Shown here one piece after another: positions 1,297-20,243 of a stretch of DNA of 64,000 bases; position 1 is the stretch's first letter, and every line of letters begins with the position of its first letter. The stretch spans positions 63,445 to 127,444 of the forward strand of contig JAJTGE010000001.1 in the NCBI GenBank assembly GCA_021298555.1, read 5' to 3'. The translations under genes and the position numbers were made by a program. The notes under the pieces were generated by a model. The model had not been told where the DNA came from, ran no database searches, and was given only the letters and a program-made list of their open reading frames with translations. This DNA is from Oxalobacteraceae bacterium (GTDB taxonomy: Bacteria > Pseudomonadota > Gammaproteobacteria > Burkholderiales > Burkholderiaceae_D).

Positions 1297-2628
1297 ATGG
1301 AACTTAAACGCATCCTCGCAAAAGATATCCGACGGGCCACCGAAAAGGCGGTTGCGCTGTATGGTCAGGACGTGCTCTTCGTGTCGAATTCACGCGCCAA
1401 CGGAATGATAGAAGTCATCGTCGCCGTAGACGTTAATGCCGAGCCTTGGGTGGAAGCTCCATCACGTGGCGATGGCGAACGCTTTGGTGACATGCTGCAG
1501 CAATCATTTAAAGCGCTGGAAAAAGGTGCGACCGCTTCTGCTGCTGATGAGCGATCGATAGCGCAACTAACTGATTCAGATTACAACGCCAAACAATCAG
1601 TTCAGGCTAATCGCCGTGAAGAAAACGAAAATGATTCTTCAAGCGCATCACAGAATCGCGAATACATACGCGGGCGTGAAATAGTCGACATGGTTCGCGA
1701 TGAATTATCAGCTATCCGTAAAGAATTCAAACTGGCTCAACGCGTGGCAACCTGGCAATCGGAAAGTTCAGCCAATGCGGCCGTCAGACCTCTGATTGGT
1801 GCGTTAGCCGAAGCCAGTATTCCGGTTTCATTGCGTACTTTGCTAGTCGACCATATCAACACCATGACCGATTTGGATGAAGCCAAGGAAGCGCTGCGAT
1901 TGCATCTGACTAAAAGCGTCGGCGAGCACTGGGCAAAACTGCCTCAAAGCGGCGTGCATGCAATCGCCGGCCCGGCGGGCGCAGGTAAGACATTAATGGT
2001 GGCACGCTTAGCGCGTGCAGCAGCCGAACGCAAAGGTGCAGAATCAATCGCCGTCATTAGTTACAGCGATCAGCGCGCCGGTGCCTGGAGCCAGATACAA
2101 ATGTTGTGTGCACAGTCGGGAGTGGACTGCTTACGTGCCAATGATGCTGAAACTCTCAAAACCCTACTCTCTGAACTTGGCCAGCGTCGCCTGGTATTGA
2201 TAGACACCCCCGGTGTGCAGACCGCAGAAAAACTGCAACAAATTATGGCGTGCTGCCCAGAACTTAACCCGCATTTGATCGTGCCGGCGGACGCGTCTAT
2301 GACGACCGTACGACGCTATCTGTCAGACATGAAGATAGCCTGGTCCAGCCTAATGGTCTCGCGCATGGATGAAGCCACCCAACCCTGGGCGCTGCTGCAA
2401 ATGCTGTGCGAAAAACCAGTCAAGCTTTCAGCCGCATCACACAGCCCACTCGCCTCGGATGGGTCTCAAGTACTCACTGCTAACGAACTAGTAGCACTCG
2501 CCATACGCGGACTCGGAATGGAAAGCAATCTGATTGCCGACGAAGTACTGGATAAAGATGAAATGACTGTGGTCACTGCCACTCATGCACTGGTCAACCG
2601 CCAAGAGACTACCGCCCATGCAAGCTAA
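1297..2628 (+). CDS. flhF: Flagellar biosynthesis GTPase FlhF (SRP-type)
   Basis: MELKRILAKDIRRATEKA N-terminus, GPAGAGKT P-loop, LIDTPG; between flhA and flhG. Confidence 0.95.
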   Translation: MELKRILAKDIRRATEKAVALYGQDVLFVSNSRANGMIEVIVAVDVNAEPWVEAPSRGDGERFGDMLQQSFKALEKGATASAADERSIAQLTDSDYNAKQSVQANRREENENDSSSASQNREYIRGREIVDMVRDELSAIRKEFKLAQRVATWQSESSANAAVRPLIGALAEASIPVSLRTLLVDHINTMTDLDEAKEALRLHLTKSVGEHWAKLPQSGVHAIAGPAGAGKTLMVARLARAAAERKGAESIAVISYSDQRAGAWSQIQMLCAQSGVDCLRANDAETLKTLLSELGQRRLVLIDTPGVQTAEKLQQIMACCPELNPHLIVPADASMTTVRRYLSDMKIAWSSLMVSRMDEATQPWALLQMLCEKPVKLSAASHSPLASDGSQVLTANELVALAIRGLGMESNLIADEVLDKDEMTVVTATHALVNRQETTAHAS

Positions 2629-3451
2629 AACTGTTAAACGCAAAACTGAAGTCATAGGCATCGCCAGCGGTAAGGGAGGTGTCGGCAAAACGACGCTTTC
2701 TACCAATCTGGCTGTCGCACTGACGATGATGAACAAGAAAGTCATGCTGTTAGACGGCGATTTGGGCCTAGCCAATGCACAAATTGCGCTGGGTTGTCAG
2801 ACCACGTACAACCTTTCGCATGTGATTGCGGGTGAAAAGACGCTCAAAGAAATCATCGTGACCTCACGTCAGGGCGTCATGCTGGTGCCTGGTGCATCCG
2901 GTGTGCATGAAATGGCGGCGATCAGTCCAGCAATTACCGCTGGTATCGTGCAAGCTTTTTCTGAACTTGATGACGACATTGATTACCTGATATTAGATGC
3001 CGCTGCGGGCATTGCGCCCTCCGTGCTGGCATTTATGGAAGCCTGTCAGCGTCGCTTTATTGTGGTTAAAGATGAACCATCATCGATTGCAGATGCCTAC
3101 GGCATTATCAAAGTCATGACACGCGACCTCGAACTCGATGAAATTTACCTTATACCCAATATGGTAGACAGCCAGGCAGCGGGAGCTCAGCTGTATCGCC
3201 GTGTAAACGAAGTCTGTGATCGTTTTTTAGGCAAGACACTACAATATTTAACCTCAATAGAGTCCGACGAGATGATACTCGCCGCCCTCAAAAAATATCA
3301 GCCCGTAATGGAATTCGCACCCGGCAGTGCCGGTGCTCGCGATTACCGCCGTCTGGCTGATGCCATCACCCACCTGCCTAGTATCAGTGGCGTCTCTGGA
3401 GGACTACAGTTCTTCATGGAACGTCTGGTACGGCAGAACCAAGGGGCTTAA
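2618..3451 (+). CDS. flhG: MinD-like ATPase FlhG/FleN; start at ATG 2618 preferred to the longer ORF
   Basis: IASGKGGVGKTTLSTNLA deviant Walker A; overlaps the flhF 3' end. Confidence 0.93.
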   Translation: MQAKTVKRKTEVIGIASGKGGVGKTTLSTNLAVALTMMNKKVMLLDGDLGLANAQIALGCQTTYNLSHVIAGEKTLKEIIVTSRQGVMLVPGASGVHEMAAISPAITAGIVQAFSELDDDIDYLILDAAAGIAPSVLAFMEACQRRFIVVKDEPSSIADAYGIIKVMTRDLELDEIYLIPNMVDSQAAGAQLYRRVNEVCDRFLGKTLQYLTSIESDEMILAALKKYQPVMEFAPGSAGARDYRRLADAITHLPSISGVSGGLQFFMERLVRQNQGA

Positions 3452-11731: not shown

Positions 11732-12889
11732 ATGTCCGAGAGCTCAGAAGAAAAAACCGAAGAACCCACCTCGCGGCGCCTGCAAAAGGCCCGTGAGGAA
11801 GGTCAGGTAGCACGCTCTCAGGAATTACCTGCGGCTGCTATTACGATTGCTGCATTAAGCATGATACTTATCACTGGCGGCATGCTGATATCAAAGTTGT
11901 CCGAAGCATTTTCTTCCGGATTTAATTTTGACCGCAAGCTGGTTCACTCATCGAATTTGCTGCCCGCTATTTTTGCTCATGAATTACTGGAAAGCTATCT
12001 ACTGATTGCTCCATTATTATTGCTAACAGCTGCTGTTGCCATTGCATCTTCCGGTGCAACAGGTGGTTTTTTATTTGAAATGGGGGCTGTTGCACCCAAG
12101 TTTTCTAAGCTCAACCCTATGAACGGCTTCAAGCGCATGTTTGGTATGAAAGCCGCTGTCGAATTAGGTAAAGCACTGCTTAAATTTACACTGGTCAGCG
12201 GTGCAGTGGCCTGGGTATTGATGGATAACGTTGGTACTCTGAATAAAATTGGCCGAATGGCGCTTGAGCCCGGCATGTTGATTGCGGGCGAGATGCTCAC
12301 GCGTTCATCGCTTATCATGGCCTGTGCGTTGGTCGTGATTGCCTTGATAGATGTTCCTTTTCAGCGCTGGCAGTTCATGAAACAAATGCGCATGACCAAG
12401 CAGGAAATTAAAGATGAAATGAAGGACATGGAGGGTAGGCCTGAAATCAAGGCACAAATCCGTCGCCGTCAGCGTGAAATGTCGAATGCACGCATGATGG
12501 ACAAAGTAAAAGATGCTGATGTCGTTATCACTAACCCGGAACACTTTGCCGTTGCCCTGGCCTACGATCCGAACGGTGATAGCGCTCCTATACTGCTGGC
12601 TAAAGGTGCTGATGCCATTGCTGCTCGTATTCGTGAAGAAGCAAAAAAACATGGCGTGGAAATTTTTCAAGCAGCACCGTTAGCTCGTGCTCTGTACTTT
12701 ACGACAGAGGTAAACCACCCTGTCCCAGAAGACTTGTATTATGCGGTTGCGCAGGTGATTGCTTATGTCTTTAACTTGGCCAGCATTCGTCCGGGTGCGG
12801 CACCCGTACAGCGCCCACAACCGACCTTACCGCCGAATATGCTGTTCGACGCCGACGGTAGGCTCGAAACTGAGGAGGCGGTTAACTGA
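11732..12889 (+). CDS. flhB: Flagellar type III export switch protein FlhB
   Basis: EEKTEEPTSRRLQKAREEGQVARSQE; VVITNPEHFAVALAYD (NPxH-type cleavage motif NPEH). Confidence 0.97.
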   Translation: MSESSEEKTEEPTSRRLQKAREEGQVARSQELPAAAITIAALSMILITGGMLISKLSEAFSSGFNFDRKLVHSSNLLPAIFAHELLESYLLIAPLLLLTAAVAIASSGATGGFLFEMGAVAPKFSKLNPMNGFKRMFGMKAAVELGKALLKFTLVSGAVAWVLMDNVGTLNKIGRMALEPGMLIAGEMLTRSSLIMACALVVIALIDVPFQRWQFMKQMRMTKQEIKDEMKDMEGRPEIKAQIRRRQREMSNARMMDKVKDADVVITNPEHFAVALAYDPNGDSAPILLAKGADAIAARIREEAKKHGVEIFQAAPLARALYFTTEVNHPVPEDLYYAVAQVIAYVFNLASIRPGAAPVQRPQPTLPPNMLFDADGRLETEEAVN

Positions 12890-14502
12890 TGGACAGAAAT
12901 CTCGACATGGCTGAACTGATCGGAGCCGAAGGTATCTTCCTTCGCACGGCTGACCGCCGCCGATTTGATTACGTGGTGCGTGGCATACGCGACGAAAGCC
13001 TTTCTTTATCGCTCACTAGTGATAACGATGGCTTGCTGGATCATTACGGTCGATTATTAATTAATAAGCTACGCAAGACTGAGGGCTTGCAGGTCGAAAT
13101 TTTTCTGCCACAAAATACCGAAGCCCTGCTTGATCGCTTTAATCAGATACTGGCTGATCTCTCGATTGACGAAGCTCGCAATGCACAAACTTCGCTGGCT
13201 CCTCGCCGCGTTTTGCTTGCGCATGATGCCAAGGCCATCAGTGAACGTGATATGCAACTGATGTCCCGGTTGATACAAGATTTTCCTGGCGCGCATGTAT
13301 CTATCGTGCTGCTGGTAGATAAAATGGGGTCGCAGCTACACGAAAAAAATCTGGAAAAATTTGGTCAACGCTTAATGCGCTGGCCTTTGGAAACACCGAC
13401 ACGCGAAGAAGGCGAAGCCTTGCTTGACATAGCACGCGCTGCCGGTTTTGACGTAGAAGTCAAAAAAGTCTTGGCCAGCACTGGTTACGCCAAACCAGCC
13501 AAAGCTGCGGTTATTGGTAATCCTTTGCCCGCCAACACTATGGCCCACGCAGCCGTCGAAGAAAAAAATGTGATCTCGGCCGGTGAACTAGCCGCCATGC
13601 GTCAGAAAGCACTGCATGGCACAACTGAACGAACTGAACCAACCATGGCTGAGCCAGCCACGCTAGCTGAGCCGACGCATGAGACACCGCCGGTTACTCG
13701 CCAACGCTTGCCTCTGCCTACTCTATTTCGATGGATCGGCGCTCTGATAATCGTGCTTATCGTCACCATCACCGTGATCATTTTATTGTTCCCCCAGCGC
13801 TTGGGCCCCATGCTGTACAGCTCTCCCCTGCTCAAGGCCAAGCTGCCCGAGTGGGCAATGAATGCAGTCGTCAGCGTAACGGGTAAACCACCCACAGCTC
13901 AGCTTGAGGAAGCCAGAGCAGCCACCAAAGAAAACACCACTACAGTTCCGGCGCCACAAGCCGATGTAGTCGATAAGAGTAATGCGACTGACAAGGGTCC
14001 GGCAGTTGAAGCAGCTGCCGCAGCTATCGATACCAAGCCTGCGGCGGAAATCGTAGCCCCGAAAGCTGATGCTAAAGCTGAACAGAAAACAGAAACAAAA
14101 GCCGAAACCGCGCTAAACACGCCTGTAACCCAGCCTGTGCCGGCCGTTACACCAGCGGCACCGATCGCCACAGCGTCACCCGCTGATGCATTGGCACCTC
14201 GGTCCGAGCGTGGCGCAGACAATGCTGTACGCCAGGCACGACCTGGTAGTTATTTTGTTCAGCATGTCTCGCTAAATTCGATGGCAGAGGCACAGGAATG
14301 GCGAGCGCAGTACGCAGCATTAAACAAGGGTCGTATAGCAGCCGTAAAAACGCCGGATAAAGGAGTGAAGTACGTGGTCCTTTCGGGGCCGTTCACAACA
14401 CAAAAAGAAGCCGAAGGATTTGCTGCCAGGCCAGGCGTACCCGCCGATCCGTGGCTACGCCCTGTGAAGTCTCTCCAGCGTGCGCTGGTGAGTAGCCGCT
14501 AA
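12889..14502 (+). CDS. Uncharacterised single-TM protein with C-terminal SPOR-like domain
   Basis: TM ALIIVLIVTITVIILLF; Ala/Pro/Lys-rich linker; C-terminus PGSYFVQHVSLNSMAEAQEWRAQYAAL...YVVLSGPFTTQKEAEGF resembles SPOR; start overlaps flhB stop (TGATG). Confidence 0.8.
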   Translation: MDRNLDMAELIGAEGIFLRTADRRRFDYVVRGIRDESLSLSLTSDNDGLLDHYGRLLINKLRKTEGLQVEIFLPQNTEALLDRFNQILADLSIDEARNAQTSLAPRRVLLAHDAKAISERDMQLMSRLIQDFPGAHVSIVLLVDKMGSQLHEKNLEKFGQRLMRWPLETPTREEGEALLDIARAAGFDVEVKKVLASTGYAKPAKAAVIGNPLPANTMAHAAVEEKNVISAGELAAMRQKALHGTTERTEPTMAEPATLAEPTHETPPVTRQRLPLPTLFRWIGALIIVLIVTITVIILLFPQRLGPMLYSSPLLKAKLPEWAMNAVVSVTGKPPTAQLEEARAATKENTTTVPAPQADVVDKSNATDKGPAVEAAAAAIDTKPAAEIVAPKADAKAEQKTETKAETALNTPVTQPVPAVTPAAPIATASPADALAPRSERGADNAVRQARPGSYFVQHVSLNSMAEAQEWRAQYAALNKGRIAAVKTPDKGVKYVVLSGPFTTQKEAEGFAARPGVPADPWLRPVKSLQRALVSSR

Positions 14503-14532
14503 GGTGAATCGTGCTGTGGATAGAGGCAGGTA

Positions 14533-15696
14533 ATGTCTGAAGAAGAAGCCCAAGTATTTCGTGGCGGTCGTTCAGTTGAGACAGCTGTCAGCGAGCATGA
14601 ACTACGCAAAAAGAAAAAACCAGTCAAGGGACCGGCTGCTGATACACGTTCACTAACAGACCAAAAAAATGGTCCTGGTGATACGCGATCGATAAATGAC
14701 CGTCGAGAAGGACCGTCCATTAGTCATGCAACGCATGATCAAAAGGGCGTCAATGATCAGCGTGCATCGCATGACGCGCAAGGCGAATCGTTTAGTCATG
14801 CAATGCATGATGCAGATGGTCTTTCTGATGTTCGTGCAACCAATGACGGCAGCGGACTGATAGATACGCATCATCTGCACGATGCCGAGGGCGCCGCAGA
14901 TCAGCGTGCGATGCATGATGCAGACGGTTTGTCTGATGGTCGCGGATGGGATGATGGTGAGGGCCTGATTGACACCCGTGCTGCGCTCGATGCAGTGGGT
15001 TTATCTGATGCGCGTGCATTGCACGATGCGGATGGCGCTGCGGATGCCAGAGCCATAGACTATGGCGATGGCCCGTCAGATGTGCAAGCACTGCAGGATG
15101 CAGATGGACCAGCGGATGCCAGAGCCATAGACGATGGCGATGGCCCATCAGATGTACGAGCACTGCAGGATGCGGATGGACCAGCGGATGCCAGAGCCAT
15201 AGACGATGGCGATGGCCCGTCAGCTGTGCAAGCACTGCACGATGCGGATGGACCAGCGGATGCTAGAGCCATAGACGATGGCGATGGCCCATCAGATGTA
15301 CGAGTACTGCAGGATGCGGATGGGCCAGCGGATGCACGCGTCATTGCGGATGCTGAAGGTCCTGAGGATAGGCGAGTGATGGAAGATCATCATGCGCTGA
15401 TACCACCCGGTTCAGAGTTAGCTGGTGAATTTTCTGCAAGTCCAGACGACATTGCAGACGATGTCGTAGTCGATAGTAAAGATGCCGCTATTGCAGCGAA
15501 ATTGGCTGAGCAATCTGAGTATGTTGAATCATTGTTGAATTCGACTGTAACTGAAGAGGCCACGCCATGGGCACTGTCGGTTCATCTTGAACAACGCATA
15601 CAGAAACTGCAGGACGCAAAGGCTAAAGTAAATTCTGAGCTGGATAGCTTGGAAGCCTCCTCGAAAAAACTTGAAAAACGATTGTCATCATTATGA
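14533..15696 (+). CDS. Acidic protein of tandem 12-residue repeats with C-terminal coiled coil; function unknown
   Basis: About 20 units of consensus xDxRAxxDxdGp, no TM, C-terminal HLEQRIQKLQDAKAKVNSELDSLEASSKKLEKRL. Confidence 0.8.
   Translation: MSEEEAQVFRGGRSVETAVSEHELRKKKKPVKGPAADTRSLTDQKNGPGDTRSINDRREGPSISHATHDQKGVNDQRASHDAQGESFSHAMHDADGLSDVRATNDGSGLIDTHHLHDAEGAADQRAMHDADGLSDGRGWDDGEGLIDTRAALDAVGLSDARALHDADGAADARAIDYGDGPSDVQALQDADGPADARAIDDGDGPSDVRALQDADGPADARAIDDGDGPSAVQALHDADGPADARAIDDGDGPSDVRVLQDADGPADARVIADAEGPEDRRVMEDHHALIPPGSELAGEFSASPDDIADDVVVDSKDAAIAAKLAEQSEYVESLLNSTVTEEATPWALSVHLEQRIQKLQDAKAKVNSELDSLEASSKKLEKRLSSL
14638..15399 (+). repeat. Coding tandem repeat array: 36-bp units, 72-bp period clear over 15040-15399, 144-bp superperiod
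   Basis: gcggatgccagagccatagac recurs at 15040, 15112, 15184 and (one change) 15256; SDVQ/SDVR/SAVQ/SDVR alternation. Confidence 0.92.
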
Positions 15697-17060
15697 GCGA
15701 CGCAGACAACGACAAAACTCAAAACGCAGGCGACGATGGGTTCTCGCCTGCTCCTCCTCCTCGGCAAATGACGGAGGAAGAAGCTGGCGTTATGCCTGAC
15801 GATGAGCTCAACGAGAACGAGGCATCCGGTGACACCATTGCCGTCTCTCAGAATACGGCTAATCGAGCACTCGAAGCAGTCCAAATTCTGGTTGAAAATA
15901 ATCGCTCAGCATCGCAACAGCTAGAGTCTTTAATGACTATCGTGCTGGATGCTGCCGAAGTGGCGAATCGCTCAGCATCGCATGTCACCACCACTGGCGG
16001 TCAACTCAATAAAGCTGCTGAAAAGCTGATCGACGGGGCACAAAAAACATCCACCCAATCGAAAGTGGTTTTAGCTTTGGTGGCCGCTATTTTGGTAGGT
16101 TGTGCAGGTACGTTCAGCTTTATCGCTGTGCAATTGCAAGCCAAGGTAGAACAACTCGATGAGATGATGCTGGCTGTGGGTAAGCGCGCGGTTGATCTCA
16201 AGCGTCGCATGGAATCCATGGACGATATCAACACACAATTAACTGAACTAAATCTCAAACAGGAAAGCACGCAATCCGTTCAGCAAGCCATAGAAGAAAA
16301 GATTGCGACGATTATTGATATCGCCAAAGGTGCGCCGAGAAAAGCACCCGAGCCTACAGGAAAGCCAGCAGCGCCCGAACCTGCGGCACCGAAGCCGATA
16401 GAAAAAGCAGAGAAGCCAGAACCGCCTGCGAAAAAAACTGAGGTCAGTAGCGCAGATGCCGCTAAAAAAGTTGAATTAGCAAAAGCAAAGGCCGAAGCAG
16501 CCAAAGCAGAAGCTGCGCGCGCCGAAGCAGCTAACAAAGCCCTGCTTCAACAACTCAGCAGCCTGGATGCGCTACTGAAAGAACAATCAAAATCAGTCAA
16601 AGATTTGTCTGGGCAAGTCAATAACCTGCAAGGCTCGGTATCCAACGTCGAATCGATAAAAAAAGATGTTGAAGGTTTAGCCAAGCTACAGCAGCAGCAA
16701 GAACGAGCTCGTGTGTTGGAAGCAGAAAAAGCCGCTCAAGAACAAGCTGCAGCCAATGCGCGCCGTGATAAAGAACTCAAAGACAAAGAACGCGATCTGG
16801 CTCGCGAGCGAGATCGTTTGCGCGAACGTGATGCCGCGCGTGACCGCGAGTTAGCCAAAGAACGCGAAGCCGCACGCGAACGTGAATTAGCTAAAGAGCG
16901 TGAATTAGCCAAAGAACGCGAACTAGCAAAAGAGCGCGACAAAGAGGGCAAAACCAAAGAGCGTAGCGTGGCGTATAACCGTGAACAATCACGCCCCACG
17001 GGTAATGCGAGTGCTGATGTACCCGCTTACTCCAAACCTACGGTTGCTAAGCCGGAGTAA
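15693..17060 (+). CDS. Uncharacterised TM coiled-coil protein with Arg/Glu/Lys-rich repetitive C-terminal region
   Basis: ATGA overlap with upstream gene; TM VVLALVAAILVGCAGTFSFIAVQL; long coiled coil; ERELAKERELAKERELAKERD repeats. Confidence 0.8.
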   Translation: MSDADNDKTQNAGDDGFSPAPPPRQMTEEEAGVMPDDELNENEASGDTIAVSQNTANRALEAVQILVENNRSASQQLESLMTIVLDAAEVANRSASHVTTTGGQLNKAAEKLIDGAQKTSTQSKVVLALVAAILVGCAGTFSFIAVQLQAKVEQLDEMMLAVGKRAVDLKRRMESMDDINTQLTELNLKQESTQSVQQAIEEKIATIIDIAKGAPRKAPEPTGKPAAPEPAAPKPIEKAEKPEPPAKKTEVSSADAAKKVELAKAKAEAAKAEAARAEAANKALLQQLSSLDALLKEQSKSVKDLSGQVNNLQGSVSNVESIKKDVEGLAKLQQQQERARVLEAEKAAQEQAAANARRDKELKDKERDLARERDRLRERDAARDRELAKEREAARERELAKERELAKERELAKERDKEGKTKERSVAYNREQSRPTGNASADVPAYSKPTVAKPE

Positions 17061-17082: not shown

Positions 17083-18048
17083 TTAACTACCAAACGCATC
17101 GACTAGTATTTCTATGCGTCGGTTTTTAGCACGGCCTTCGCGCGTATCGTTGGCTGAAACTGGCTTGGTATCTGCCATGCCCCTCACCATTAAGCGCTAG
17201 CGGTTATGCCCGGACAAAGGCACATCATCGGTATGACCTTCAATAATGATGCGGCCCCCAGCTTCGGTAATGGTCTTACCAATTTTTTTCAACACAGGCA
17301 TAAATTCGGTAGCTAAGTCTGCACTACCGGAATAAAAACTGCCCTGCACTACCAGGCGAATCACGATACGTTCACCATCGCGTTCTACTTGCGCCTGGCC
17401 TTTAACAATTTCTGTCTTTAAGGCCTCGCGTAATTTGTCCAACTGCCGCGCTGTTTCTGCCATTCGATCCGCAGTTTCTATACCTTCGCGCACTTCGACT
17501 ACGCTCTCGACCTGAGCCTGAGCATCAGCGATACGGGCATACAGATCAATTAACTCTTGAGGCAGCACACCCTTGCCACGCTCTGGCAATTGCAAAACCA
17601 AACGGCCGTTTTCTGCATGCAGTTGAATTTTTTTTCCTACTAAGTCTGTAGAGAGTTCTTTTTCGAGTTTGCCGAGGTCTTTGGCGAGTTGTTCTGAAAA
17701 CGGGCCTGCTTCAGTCGCAGGGCCACCGTTAATTGATGGCCCGCCTGCAGCTAGTTGTGTGTCAGTCGGTGGAGCCACCACTACAGGGGGGGCCATGTCA
17801 CTGCCCAGGGATTTTTGCAGCGAACCGCTGACATCACGAAAACGAGTGGGGTCTAAATCAGAAAATGATAAGAGTAAAACAAAAAACGCCATCAGCAGCG
17901 TGACCATGTCGGCAAACGTGACTATCCACGTAGGCCAAGGATGGCGAGGGTGCTGCATGTGATCATCATCTTCAAATAAATCAGACGCAGCGAACATCGA
18001 CTGATGTTCAGGCTTTTCTAAGACTGCAACGTCTGTTTCGGTGGCCAT
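17083..18048 (-). pseudogene. motB: Flagellar motor protein MotB, with apparent internal deletion and in-frame TAG (ORF 17197-18048, C-terminal remnant 17083-17196)
   Basis: PWPTWIVTFADMVTLLMAFFVLLLSFSDLD; OmpA-like GHTDDVPLSGHNR then TAG then in-frame RLMVRGMADTKPVSANDTREGRAKNRRIEILVDAFGS. Confidence 0.85.
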
Positions 18049-18053
18049 CAGAT

Positions 18054-18911
18054 TCAGGACTTGGTGTCCGTCTCAGCTGTCGGTGTTTCGGCCGATGGTA
18101 ACTCGAGCGCGGGTTCAGGATCTGGGACAGGCAAAGCCTCAGGCTCGGGCTCAGGTTCGATTGTTTGTTTGAGATTGCCTAGCAAGAGATCAGGCAGCAT
18201 GCGTGGGTCGCCACCTTTTTGCAGAAACATCATTCCCGCAATCACAAGCTCATAATTATTTTTGACACGCTTACCGTGGCCCATAATTTTTTGCACCATG
18301 GGGCCTAACACCACGTTGGACAGTATGGCGCCATACAGGGTCGTTAGTAAGGCGACCGCCATACCCGGGCCTATGGCGCGCGGATCAGTCATGTTACCCA
18401 TCATGAGCACGAGTCCCAATAGCGTGCCTATCATACCCATAGCAGGGGCCAATTCCTGGGCGTAAGCAAAAAAATCACGTGCATTATCAAAGCGTGTTTT
18501 TTCTTCAGCGAGTTCACGTAACAAAGCATCTTTCATGAGCACTGGTTCCAGACCATCCACCCACAAACGAACTGCCTTGGCGATAAACCTATCGTTGTAT
18601 TCACGATCCTCAAGTAATACCATCCAACGATCGTTATAACGAGCCACACGACCGACTTCTATCATTTCATCGATCAGATCGGTTAAGCGCGTAGGCGAAT
18701 GCGATACTGCCTCACGCGCGGTATTAAATGCACTCTTGAATTCGGGTAGCGTGCTCTTGGACAGAACGCATAAAAAGGTGCCCCCAAACACAATCAGTAT
18801 TGCCGGTATATCGACGAACTGTAAAAAATTACCGCCAGTAGCGAGTGCAATAAGCACCAGGGCGCCAACAACACCGATCACACTTCCGCTTTGAATTTGA
18901 GGCTTAGACAT
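18054..18911 (-). CDS. motA: Flagellar motor stator protein MotA/PomA with Pro/Glu-rich C-terminal tail
   Basis: FVDIPAILIVFGGT, APAMGMIGTLLGLVLMMGNMTDPRAIGPGMAVALLTTLYGAILSN. Confidence 0.95.
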   Translation of the reverse strand: MSKPQIQSGSVIGVVGALVLIALATGGNFLQFVDIPAILIVFGGTFLCVLSKSTLPEFKSAFNTAREAVSHSPTRLTDLIDEMIEVGRVARYNDRWMVLLEDREYNDRFIAKAVRLWVDGLEPVLMKDALLRELAEEKTRFDNARDFFAYAQELAPAMGMIGTLLGLVLMMGNMTDPRAIGPGMAVALLTTLYGAILSNVVLGPMVQKIMGHGKRVKNNYELVIAGMMFLQKGGDPRMLPDLLLGNLKQTIEPEPEPEALPVPDPEPALELPSAETPTAETDTKS

Positions 18912-18917
18912 AATTAT

Positions 18918-20024
18918 TTACGCAGAACGAAGGCGGTATTTATCGATTTTTTCTATTAGGGTAGTCCGCTGTAAATTCAGCAGACGGGCTGTTTTGGAGA
19001 CGTTACCTGACGATCGATCCAAGGCTTGCTCTATGAATGCTCTCTCAATTTGCGCCATTTTTTCTTTTAGCGACAAACCCTCAGGCGGCAACACAGGGCC
19101 ACCTTGCGCCAACATGATGATGTCTTCCACATGATTGCGCTCATCGTCTGCAGGCACCACAAAGGGGACTGTACCCGGCTCTTGCAAAGCAAACATCTGC
19201 AATACATCAGCCGACGGTGGCGCAGGTTCCTCGCCCGCCCGCTCTAACTGCAGTTTTTGCAAACCCTTGGGCAACATGGAAACAGGTATACCAGCCAGCG
19301 TGAGGTACTGACCAGCAAACAGCGTAGAGAATCGATGAACCAGGTTCGATAGCTCGCGCACATTACCCGGCCACTCGTAGGATTTTAAAGCGTCGAGGAA
19401 CTCGGGCGAAAAACTAACCGGCGTACCTTTATGCGCGAATTTTTCTGCATAATGTTTTAACAGCATCGCAACATCTTCACCGCGATCACGCAAGGGTGGC
19501 GTGGTCACAGGGAGTACATTCAATCGGTAATATAAATCTTCGCGAAAGCGGCCCTCGGCGATTTCAAATTCTAAATCGCGGTGCGTCGCGGCGATGACTC
19601 TCACATCCACTTCAACTGCGCGAGACGAACCTACTGGGTCAACCATGCGCTCTTGAAGCACACGCAAAAGCTTTACCTGCATATCTAGCGAGAGATCACC
19701 GATTTCATCTAAGAAAAGTGTGCCGCCATGGGCTAACTCAAAACGTCCCACACGATCAGCGAGCGCACCGGTGAACGCGCCTTTGCGATGACCAAAGAGC
19801 TCGCTTTCCATCAGCTCTTTGGGAATCGCTGCGCAGTTCAACGGAACAAAGTTGGCGTCAGCACGAGAGGATTGATGATGCAATGCCTGAGCAACTAATT
19901 CCTTGCCAGTGCCAGACTCACCATTGATTAGTACCGTCGCAGTCGAGTCCGCGATGGTCTCGATAAGCTTGCGTATCTCGCGCATCGGTGGACTATTACC
20001 AATGATGGGATTCGGCTGTCGCAT
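18918..20024 (-). CDS. Sigma-54-dependent transcriptional activator (AAA+ plus Fis HTH), FleQ/FlrC-like, without N-terminal receiver domain
   Basis: [44 protein letters not shown]-terminal [16 protein letters not shown]; start [13 protein letters not shown]. Confidence 0.9.
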
Positions 20025-20243
20025 CAGATTGTGACCCCTGAAGGTATCGTTAAGGGTACGTAGGAGAAAATAAAGCTTGTTTAAAACCCTATTTCCCGAA
20101 TGTTTCCCGATTGGAACATACGGATGCCATACTGTCAACGTTCCAGAGCCAGCAAAATCAATGACTTAGCATATTAAAAAGATAATTCAGCAATTTAAAC
20201 TTACAAATCACCCCCTGCGAGCTCTGGCTACAATGTCAGAGTC

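Follow-up and report, generated by a model that had tools for sequence, protein, structure and literature searches.

A conserved three-gene module behind flhB in Burkholderiales: a candidate envelope scaffold tied to one type of flagellum

Introduction

To our knowledge, the anchoring and siting of flagella are understood mainly from a few gammaproteobacteria. The module described here would provide a compact, genetically linked candidate for these tasks in bacteria abundant in fresh water, cultured Limnohabitans strains among them; no earlier description of it was found in the open-licence literature.

One of the closest described arrangements is the pair GspA/GspB. In GspA, a cytoplasmic AAA+ domain and a transmembrane (TM) segment are combined with a module that binds the wall; its partner GspB serves as a scaffold in the membrane, and individual lineages have lost the wall-binding parts or replaced them, for example by polyampholyte tails (PMC9239104). 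Among SPOR domains, a glutamine residue makes contact with denuded glycan (PMC6895207). FipA, a DUF2802 protein, is a membrane anchor for FlhF (PMC11620751).

Layout of the locus

The window, that is, the whole stretch of 64 000 nucleotides that was analysed, contains three open reading frames (g1, g2 and g3) directly 3' of flhB. The coordinates given for them in the original prediction were reproduced, as were the coupling and close spacing claimed there: the flhB stop and the g1 start share TGATG (12887–12891), g1 and g2 are 30 nt apart, and g2 and g3 overlap in ATGA (15693–15696). The features are as follows:

1297–3451, forward strand: flhF (SRP54 GTPase, 1297–2628) and flhG (ParA/MinD-like, 2585–3451) of the same flagellar cluster, named by Pfam family and gene order
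11732–12889, forward strand: flhB, invariant upstream partner of the module
12889–14502, forward strand: g1, 537 aa, with predicted pseudo-AAA+ domain, one TM segment, low-complexity linker and SPOR domain
12931–13488, forward strand: predicted pseudo-AAA+ domain of g1, approximately residues 15–200, lacking Walker A and keeping a Walker-B-like Asp (AlphaFold2, Foldseek, motif counts)
13732–13791, forward strand: TM segment of g1, approximately residues 282–301 (alignment, orthologue hydropathy)
14242–14427, forward strand: SPOR domain of g1, residues 452–513, with Q458 (glycan-contact Gln) and S461 (Pfam PF05036; PMC6895207)
14533–15696, forward strand: g2, soluble, with a short conserved N-terminal motif, a C-terminal helix and a variable linker between them
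15016–15335, forward strand: acidic 24-aa (2 × 12) repeat array of g2, the genus-specific version of the linker (TRF; absent outside the genus)
15565–15693, forward strand: helix/coiled-coil motif conserved at the C terminus of g2, P-W-x-L-S-x-H-L-E-x-R-I ... (related motif in Limnohabitans g2)
15693–17060, forward strand: g3, 455 aa, with conserved N-terminal helix VLDAAEVANRSA, one TM segment, long coiled coil and R/E/K-rich tail
16068–16124, forward strand: TM segment of g3, approximately residues 126–144, predicted N-in (charge counts in orthologues)
16449–16958, forward strand: predicted long helix of g3, residues 253–422, ending in an R/E/K (polyampholyte) stretch (AlphaFold2)
17197–20138, reverse strand: motB (broken), motA and the gene of a sigma-54 activator, all convergent with the module and lying beyond its downstream end

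Upstream of the module the cluster contains flhA, flhF, flhG, fliA, fliK and fliL (assigned with Pfam; two ORFs of this stretch were left unassigned) and fliM-N-O-P-Q-R (named by sequence and order). The genes from flhB onward, including the module, are probably transcribed together. The motB gene (17197–18048, reverse strand) lacks 27 codons within its OmpA-like domain relative to a same-genus relative and carries an in-frame stop there. The lesion may be real or may stem from faulty assembly; relatives carry intact motB.

Conservation and link to one flagellum type

Among 20 further genomes of the genus, 19 have intact orthologues of g1–g3 behind flhB in the same order, within the limits of their contigs. 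Scanning 85 462 species genomes for the N-terminal domain of g1 yielded 77 further loci; distant relatives may be missed because the scan relies on degenerate patterns. All of these loci belong to Burkholderiales with the exception of one metagenome-assembled genome (MAG) labelled Akkermansia, the flhB of which groups inside Limnohabitans. The carriers are freshwater Oxalobacteraceae MAGs, Limnohabitans and other Comamonadaceae, and marine betaproteobacteria. Together with the window, 78 loci were available for counting, most of them from MAGs. The gene flhB directly precedes g1 in all 77 loci that include it (the remaining locus begins at g1), and the two genes share 4 nt in 60 cases and 1 nt in 9. 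A g3 gene is present in 68 of 78, the other ten ending (contig or retrieved flank) before its position, and in each of the 51 loci long enough to include the sigma-54 gene, that gene is convergent. The module is thus real, not a product of chance, and it is conserved beyond the genus of the window. In one locus (L151:5788–6959), flhB is present as two overlapping ORFs, perhaps because of an assembly frameshift.

A profile search across the class (321 genomes) gave no additional relatives. One match (G446, E=3.5e-5) was discarded as a chance match to a protein that is FolC-like by sequence; matches of the g3 profile in G109 and G134, judged by length and E-values, look like chance matches between coiled coils.

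In a sample of the order comprising 300 genomes, six have an FlhB at least 54% identical to that of the window, after which identity drops to at most 45% in approximately 200. The carriers of g1 are exactly these six, with none among the approximately 200 other FlhB carriers. In the FlhB tree, all 32 FlhB sequences from module loci form one clade (support 100/99), apart from other betaproteobacteria and from gammaproteobacteria. The module is tied to one flagellum type. The claim of an undescribed module linked to flagellar genes is accordingly borne out by co-conservation with flhB (77/77 loci, 6/6 genomes, one FlhB clade), and the contrary outcome, a lack of co-conservation, is clearly contradicted. 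The FlhB nearest to the clade, on a long branch (G927), has no module at its flhB locus.

The distribution of this flagellum type is patchy: it occurs in one genus of its family, in one sampled species of a second family (f12), which also carries a second FlhB, and in some members of a third (f17). Such patchiness fits horizontal transfer with loss, short of proof. One genome of the window's genus, rated 100% complete (G013), has a different FlhB elsewhere in the genome; at L040:8405–10360, beside genes that elsewhere follow the cluster, all that is left is fliO and the half of g1 with TM segment and SPOR. In another genome, which has two FlhB types (G124, L159:8440–9681), g1 is unlinked from flhB and lies in another flagellar region, near motAB-like genes and apparent flgA/flgM/flgN genes. 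A second FlhB/FliP/FliR-like set (33%, 39% and 22% identity) lies on contig C85 (L062) of the window's own genome and probably represents a type III secretion cluster of the non-flagellar kind. Cultured Limnohabitans strains carry the flagellar cluster of the module (L115, L123, L152 and other loci); Limnohabitans australis, however, is described as non-motile (PMC3031073).

The pseudo-AAA+/SPOR protein g1

The first 237 residues of g1 were modelled with AlphaFold2 on the basis of 79 homologues, which gave an alternating alpha/beta core at a mean pLDDT of 79.6 (80–95 in most blocks). The best-matching solved structures listed by Foldseek were overwhelmingly AAA+ proteins (among them ORC/Cdc6, RFC and NSF; probability 1.00, E from 1.9e-5) at a moderate TMq of approximately 0.5, and an AAA+ fold is predicted from this model. 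According to column counts, Walker A (GxxxxGK[TS]) is missing in all 79 g1 sequences, LLDHY standing at that position, and the Asp of the Walker B strand is kept in 77 of 79; the domain is predicted to be catalytically dead, without ATP binding. This pseudo-AAA+ domain is the most conserved part of g1 and had been missed in the first reading. Sequence searches in Pfam, NCBIfam and the PDB matched no family to it. Alignment by hhalign with ExeA/GspA-like proteins (sampled as members of TIGR03015) gave P=0.0086, in register at Walker B, the NtrC-type AAA control giving 0.64, which is at most suggestive of kinship with GspA/ExeA-like ATPases.

A TM segment and a SPOR-like domain had been proposed for g1, and both were recovered, as a hydrophobic segment at approximately 282–301 and as a match to PF05036 (E=2.8e-9, above the gathering score). 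SPOR is the sole Pfam domain in g1; the peptidoglycan-binding domain PF01471 was not found there. Lys and Arg are more abundant on the N side of the TM segment in 70 of 74 orthologues, with equal numbers in the rest, and an N-in/C-out topology is predicted. In other lineages the Pfam score of the SPOR domain is weaker or absent, with the QH...SGPF pattern still in place. The contact Gln is kept in the window and in most relatives, the residue three positions further on being Ser, Ala or Thr; these conserved residues make the domain a putative binder of denuded glycan.

Thirteen g1 proteins of the Limnohabitans type (329–341 aa) end without a SPOR domain and keep the pseudo-AAA+/TM core together with the rest of the module, g2 lying close behind g1 wherever it could be mapped. 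Strongly supported branches of the FlhB tree force at least three changes between presence and absence. The domain has been lost repeatedly in Limnohabitans; as an essential part of the module it is ruled out by this repeated loss. Since some Limnohabitans do without SPOR, g1 cannot bind the wall in every lineage. The SPOR proteins that act in cell division, such as DamX, resemble g1 in having a single TM segment, an N-in orientation and a C-terminal periplasmic SPOR domain with the key Gln; g1, as predicted, differs from them in its large pseudo-AAA+ domain, which is the best conserved part, in its linkage to flhB and in the dispensability of SPOR in one clade.

The partner proteins g2 and g3

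The original prediction had described g2 as an acidic repeat scaffold. The repeats are present as an array of a 72-bp unit (4.4 copies, 90% matches, 36-bp sub-period; TRF); as a general feature they did not stand, orthologue comparison having placed them in the genus of the window only. Outside it, g2 usually comprises 120–210 aa (up to approximately 370 in some MAGs) and consists of an N-terminal motif like IRSDxPHAVxMxxGSNVAxRK and a C-terminal motif like WEQDNPVKxRIxQLRxRNAxLxEQLQRL, joined by linkers that are rich in proline and alanine or otherwise repeat-rich. The Limnohabitans version (W..DNPVK.RI.QLR.RNA.L) is related to the C-terminal motif in the window. Since the linker between the conserved motifs differs outside the genus, the acidic repeat is regarded as a spacer variant, and its restriction to one genus rules it out as the functional core. 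For some marine loci, none of the sequence between g1 and g3 could be identified as a g2 ORF.

The most conserved parts of g3 in alignments are the helix before the TM segment (VLDAAEVANRSA) and the stretch after it. Lys and Arg are more abundant on the N side of the TM segment in 49 of 55 orthologues, and by this charge rule alone the coiled coil is probably periplasmic. AlphaFold2 gave two very long helices at a pTM of 0.29, so that only the helicity of the model is informative. Of the earlier description of g3, the TM segment (placed here near residue 126) and the long helical part were retained; the R/E/K-rich tail belongs to the genus and was not found in orthologues outside it. No Pfam entry scored above the cut-off for g3, a gspB-type partner match included. 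For g2 and g3, Pfam and NCBIfam gave weak hits (MSCRAMM, ATG14 and similar) that stayed below the cut-off and were set aside as composition or coiled-coil matches.

Proposed function and comparison with known systems

By analogy with GspA/GspB, the three proteins may constitute an accessory envelope scaffold that anchors the flagellar basal body to the inner membrane and the wall, a reading to which a probability of roughly 50% is assigned. The dead AAA+ domain of g1 would lie in the cytoplasm and its SPOR domain, where kept, on peptidoglycan in the periplasm; g3 would extend as a coiled-coil rod from the inner membrane into the periplasm, with the polyampholyte tail added in the window's genus; and g2 would act as a tether in the cytoplasm, both of its ends carrying a binding motif and the spacer between them being adjustable. 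Jointly they would tie the basal body and the export gate to the inner membrane and the cell wall during assembly, much as GspA/GspB act on the type II secretin. We infer that g1, g2 and g3 bind one another and the basal body, and that their role is one of anchoring. The scaffold role suggested originally agrees with the domain anatomy.

This reading is preferred because g1 and g3 share both the parts of GspA/GspB and their kind of variation: an AAA+ domain, a TM segment and a periplasmic peptidoglycan-binding domain would be combined in one protein, with a membrane scaffold as partner, and the variable loss of peptidoglycan-binding parts is paralleled by the SPOR loss in g1 and the polyampholyte tail in g3. 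In contrast to GspA, however, g1 has no Walker A and carries SPOR instead of PF01471, and the module includes a third, soluble tether (g2), belongs to the flagellum and shows no significant sequence homology to that pair. If the GspA/GspB-like scaffold is true, flagella and secretion machines share one way of wall attachment. Variants that occur in nature, in which SPOR is missing, the linker is exchanged or g1 is halved, would serve as ready-made tests.

The main rival, polar placement, is possible at a lower level of confidence. The module would mark or hold the flagellar site. At the new pole, SPOR would bind denuded glycan; the pseudo-AAA+ domain would recruit FlhF/FlhG or C-ring parts, with g2 bridging them, and the module would thus do the work of FipA beside FimV/HubP. 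The presence of flhF and flhG in the same cluster points this way, although the gene coupling is to flhB and not to these genes, and SPOR has repeatedly been lost from an otherwise intact module. FipA resembles the module as a small membrane-anchored factor that is encoded in the flagellar cluster of FlhF/FlhG users; the module differs in architecture and gene position and has no DUF2802, which Pfam did not detect in g1–g3. FipA was not found in the window's genome or, overall, in nine of the ten genomes searched, including all five of the window's genus, where FimV-type proteins are present; its absence says little, however, because two genomes with another flagellum (G013, G035) also lack it. 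A ParA-type gene precedes the paralogue of the g1 core described below in G323, but in this lineage only.

The analogy to HubP/FimV and TipN drawn in the original prediction from repeats and SPOR was not supported. Acidic cytoplasmic repeats and wall contact would indeed recall HubP/FimV, but here they are split over two proteins and confined to the window's genus; SPOR is missing in 13 loci, and neither LysM nor the C-terminal FimV domain was found in g1–g3 (Pfam, NCBIfam). Replacement of HubP is less likely because a FimV/HubP-type protein (FimV core) is encoded elsewhere in the window's genome.

In other polar motors, stators are held by accessory periplasmic structures. A corresponding support of the motor, with the periplasmic coiled coil of g3 and the wall anchor of g1 holding the stators, is considered unlikely: many loci have motAB as the following gene pair and g1 lies near motAB-like genes in G124, but the adjoining motAB varies in type, orientation and presence, and flhB never does. 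An export-gate accessory that acts on FlhB/FliPQR function or specificity switching, its wall domain being incidental, would also fit the coupling to flhB and the nearly invariant reading-frame overlap, but is highly improbable, as two proteins that span the membrane, one of them carrying a domain for wall binding, exceed the needs of such a role.

A g1-core paralogue among type VI secretion genes

In at least three genomes (G323, G012 and G006; clusters L160:7837–16927, L248:4574–12602 and L249:6394–14435), a type VI secretion cluster contains a paralogue of the g1 core (predicted pseudo-AAA+ domain and TM segment, without SPOR), and the core is therefore not confined to flagella. A broader proposal, which must be called doubtful, is that the pseudo-AAA+/TM protein represents a new class of envelope-machine adaptor that with g2 and g3 forms an unknown system, independent of HubP and FipA, for siting and anchoring a polar flagellum, and that its stripped-down paralogue serves type VI secretion. 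Downstream of the paralogue lie genes for a multi-TM-looking membrane protein and for a regulator pair, an HTH protein and a LuxR-type response regulator, followed by the sheath genes of the secretion system. In two more genomes the paralogue is accompanied by part of this downstream set, on contigs that end before the sheath genes.
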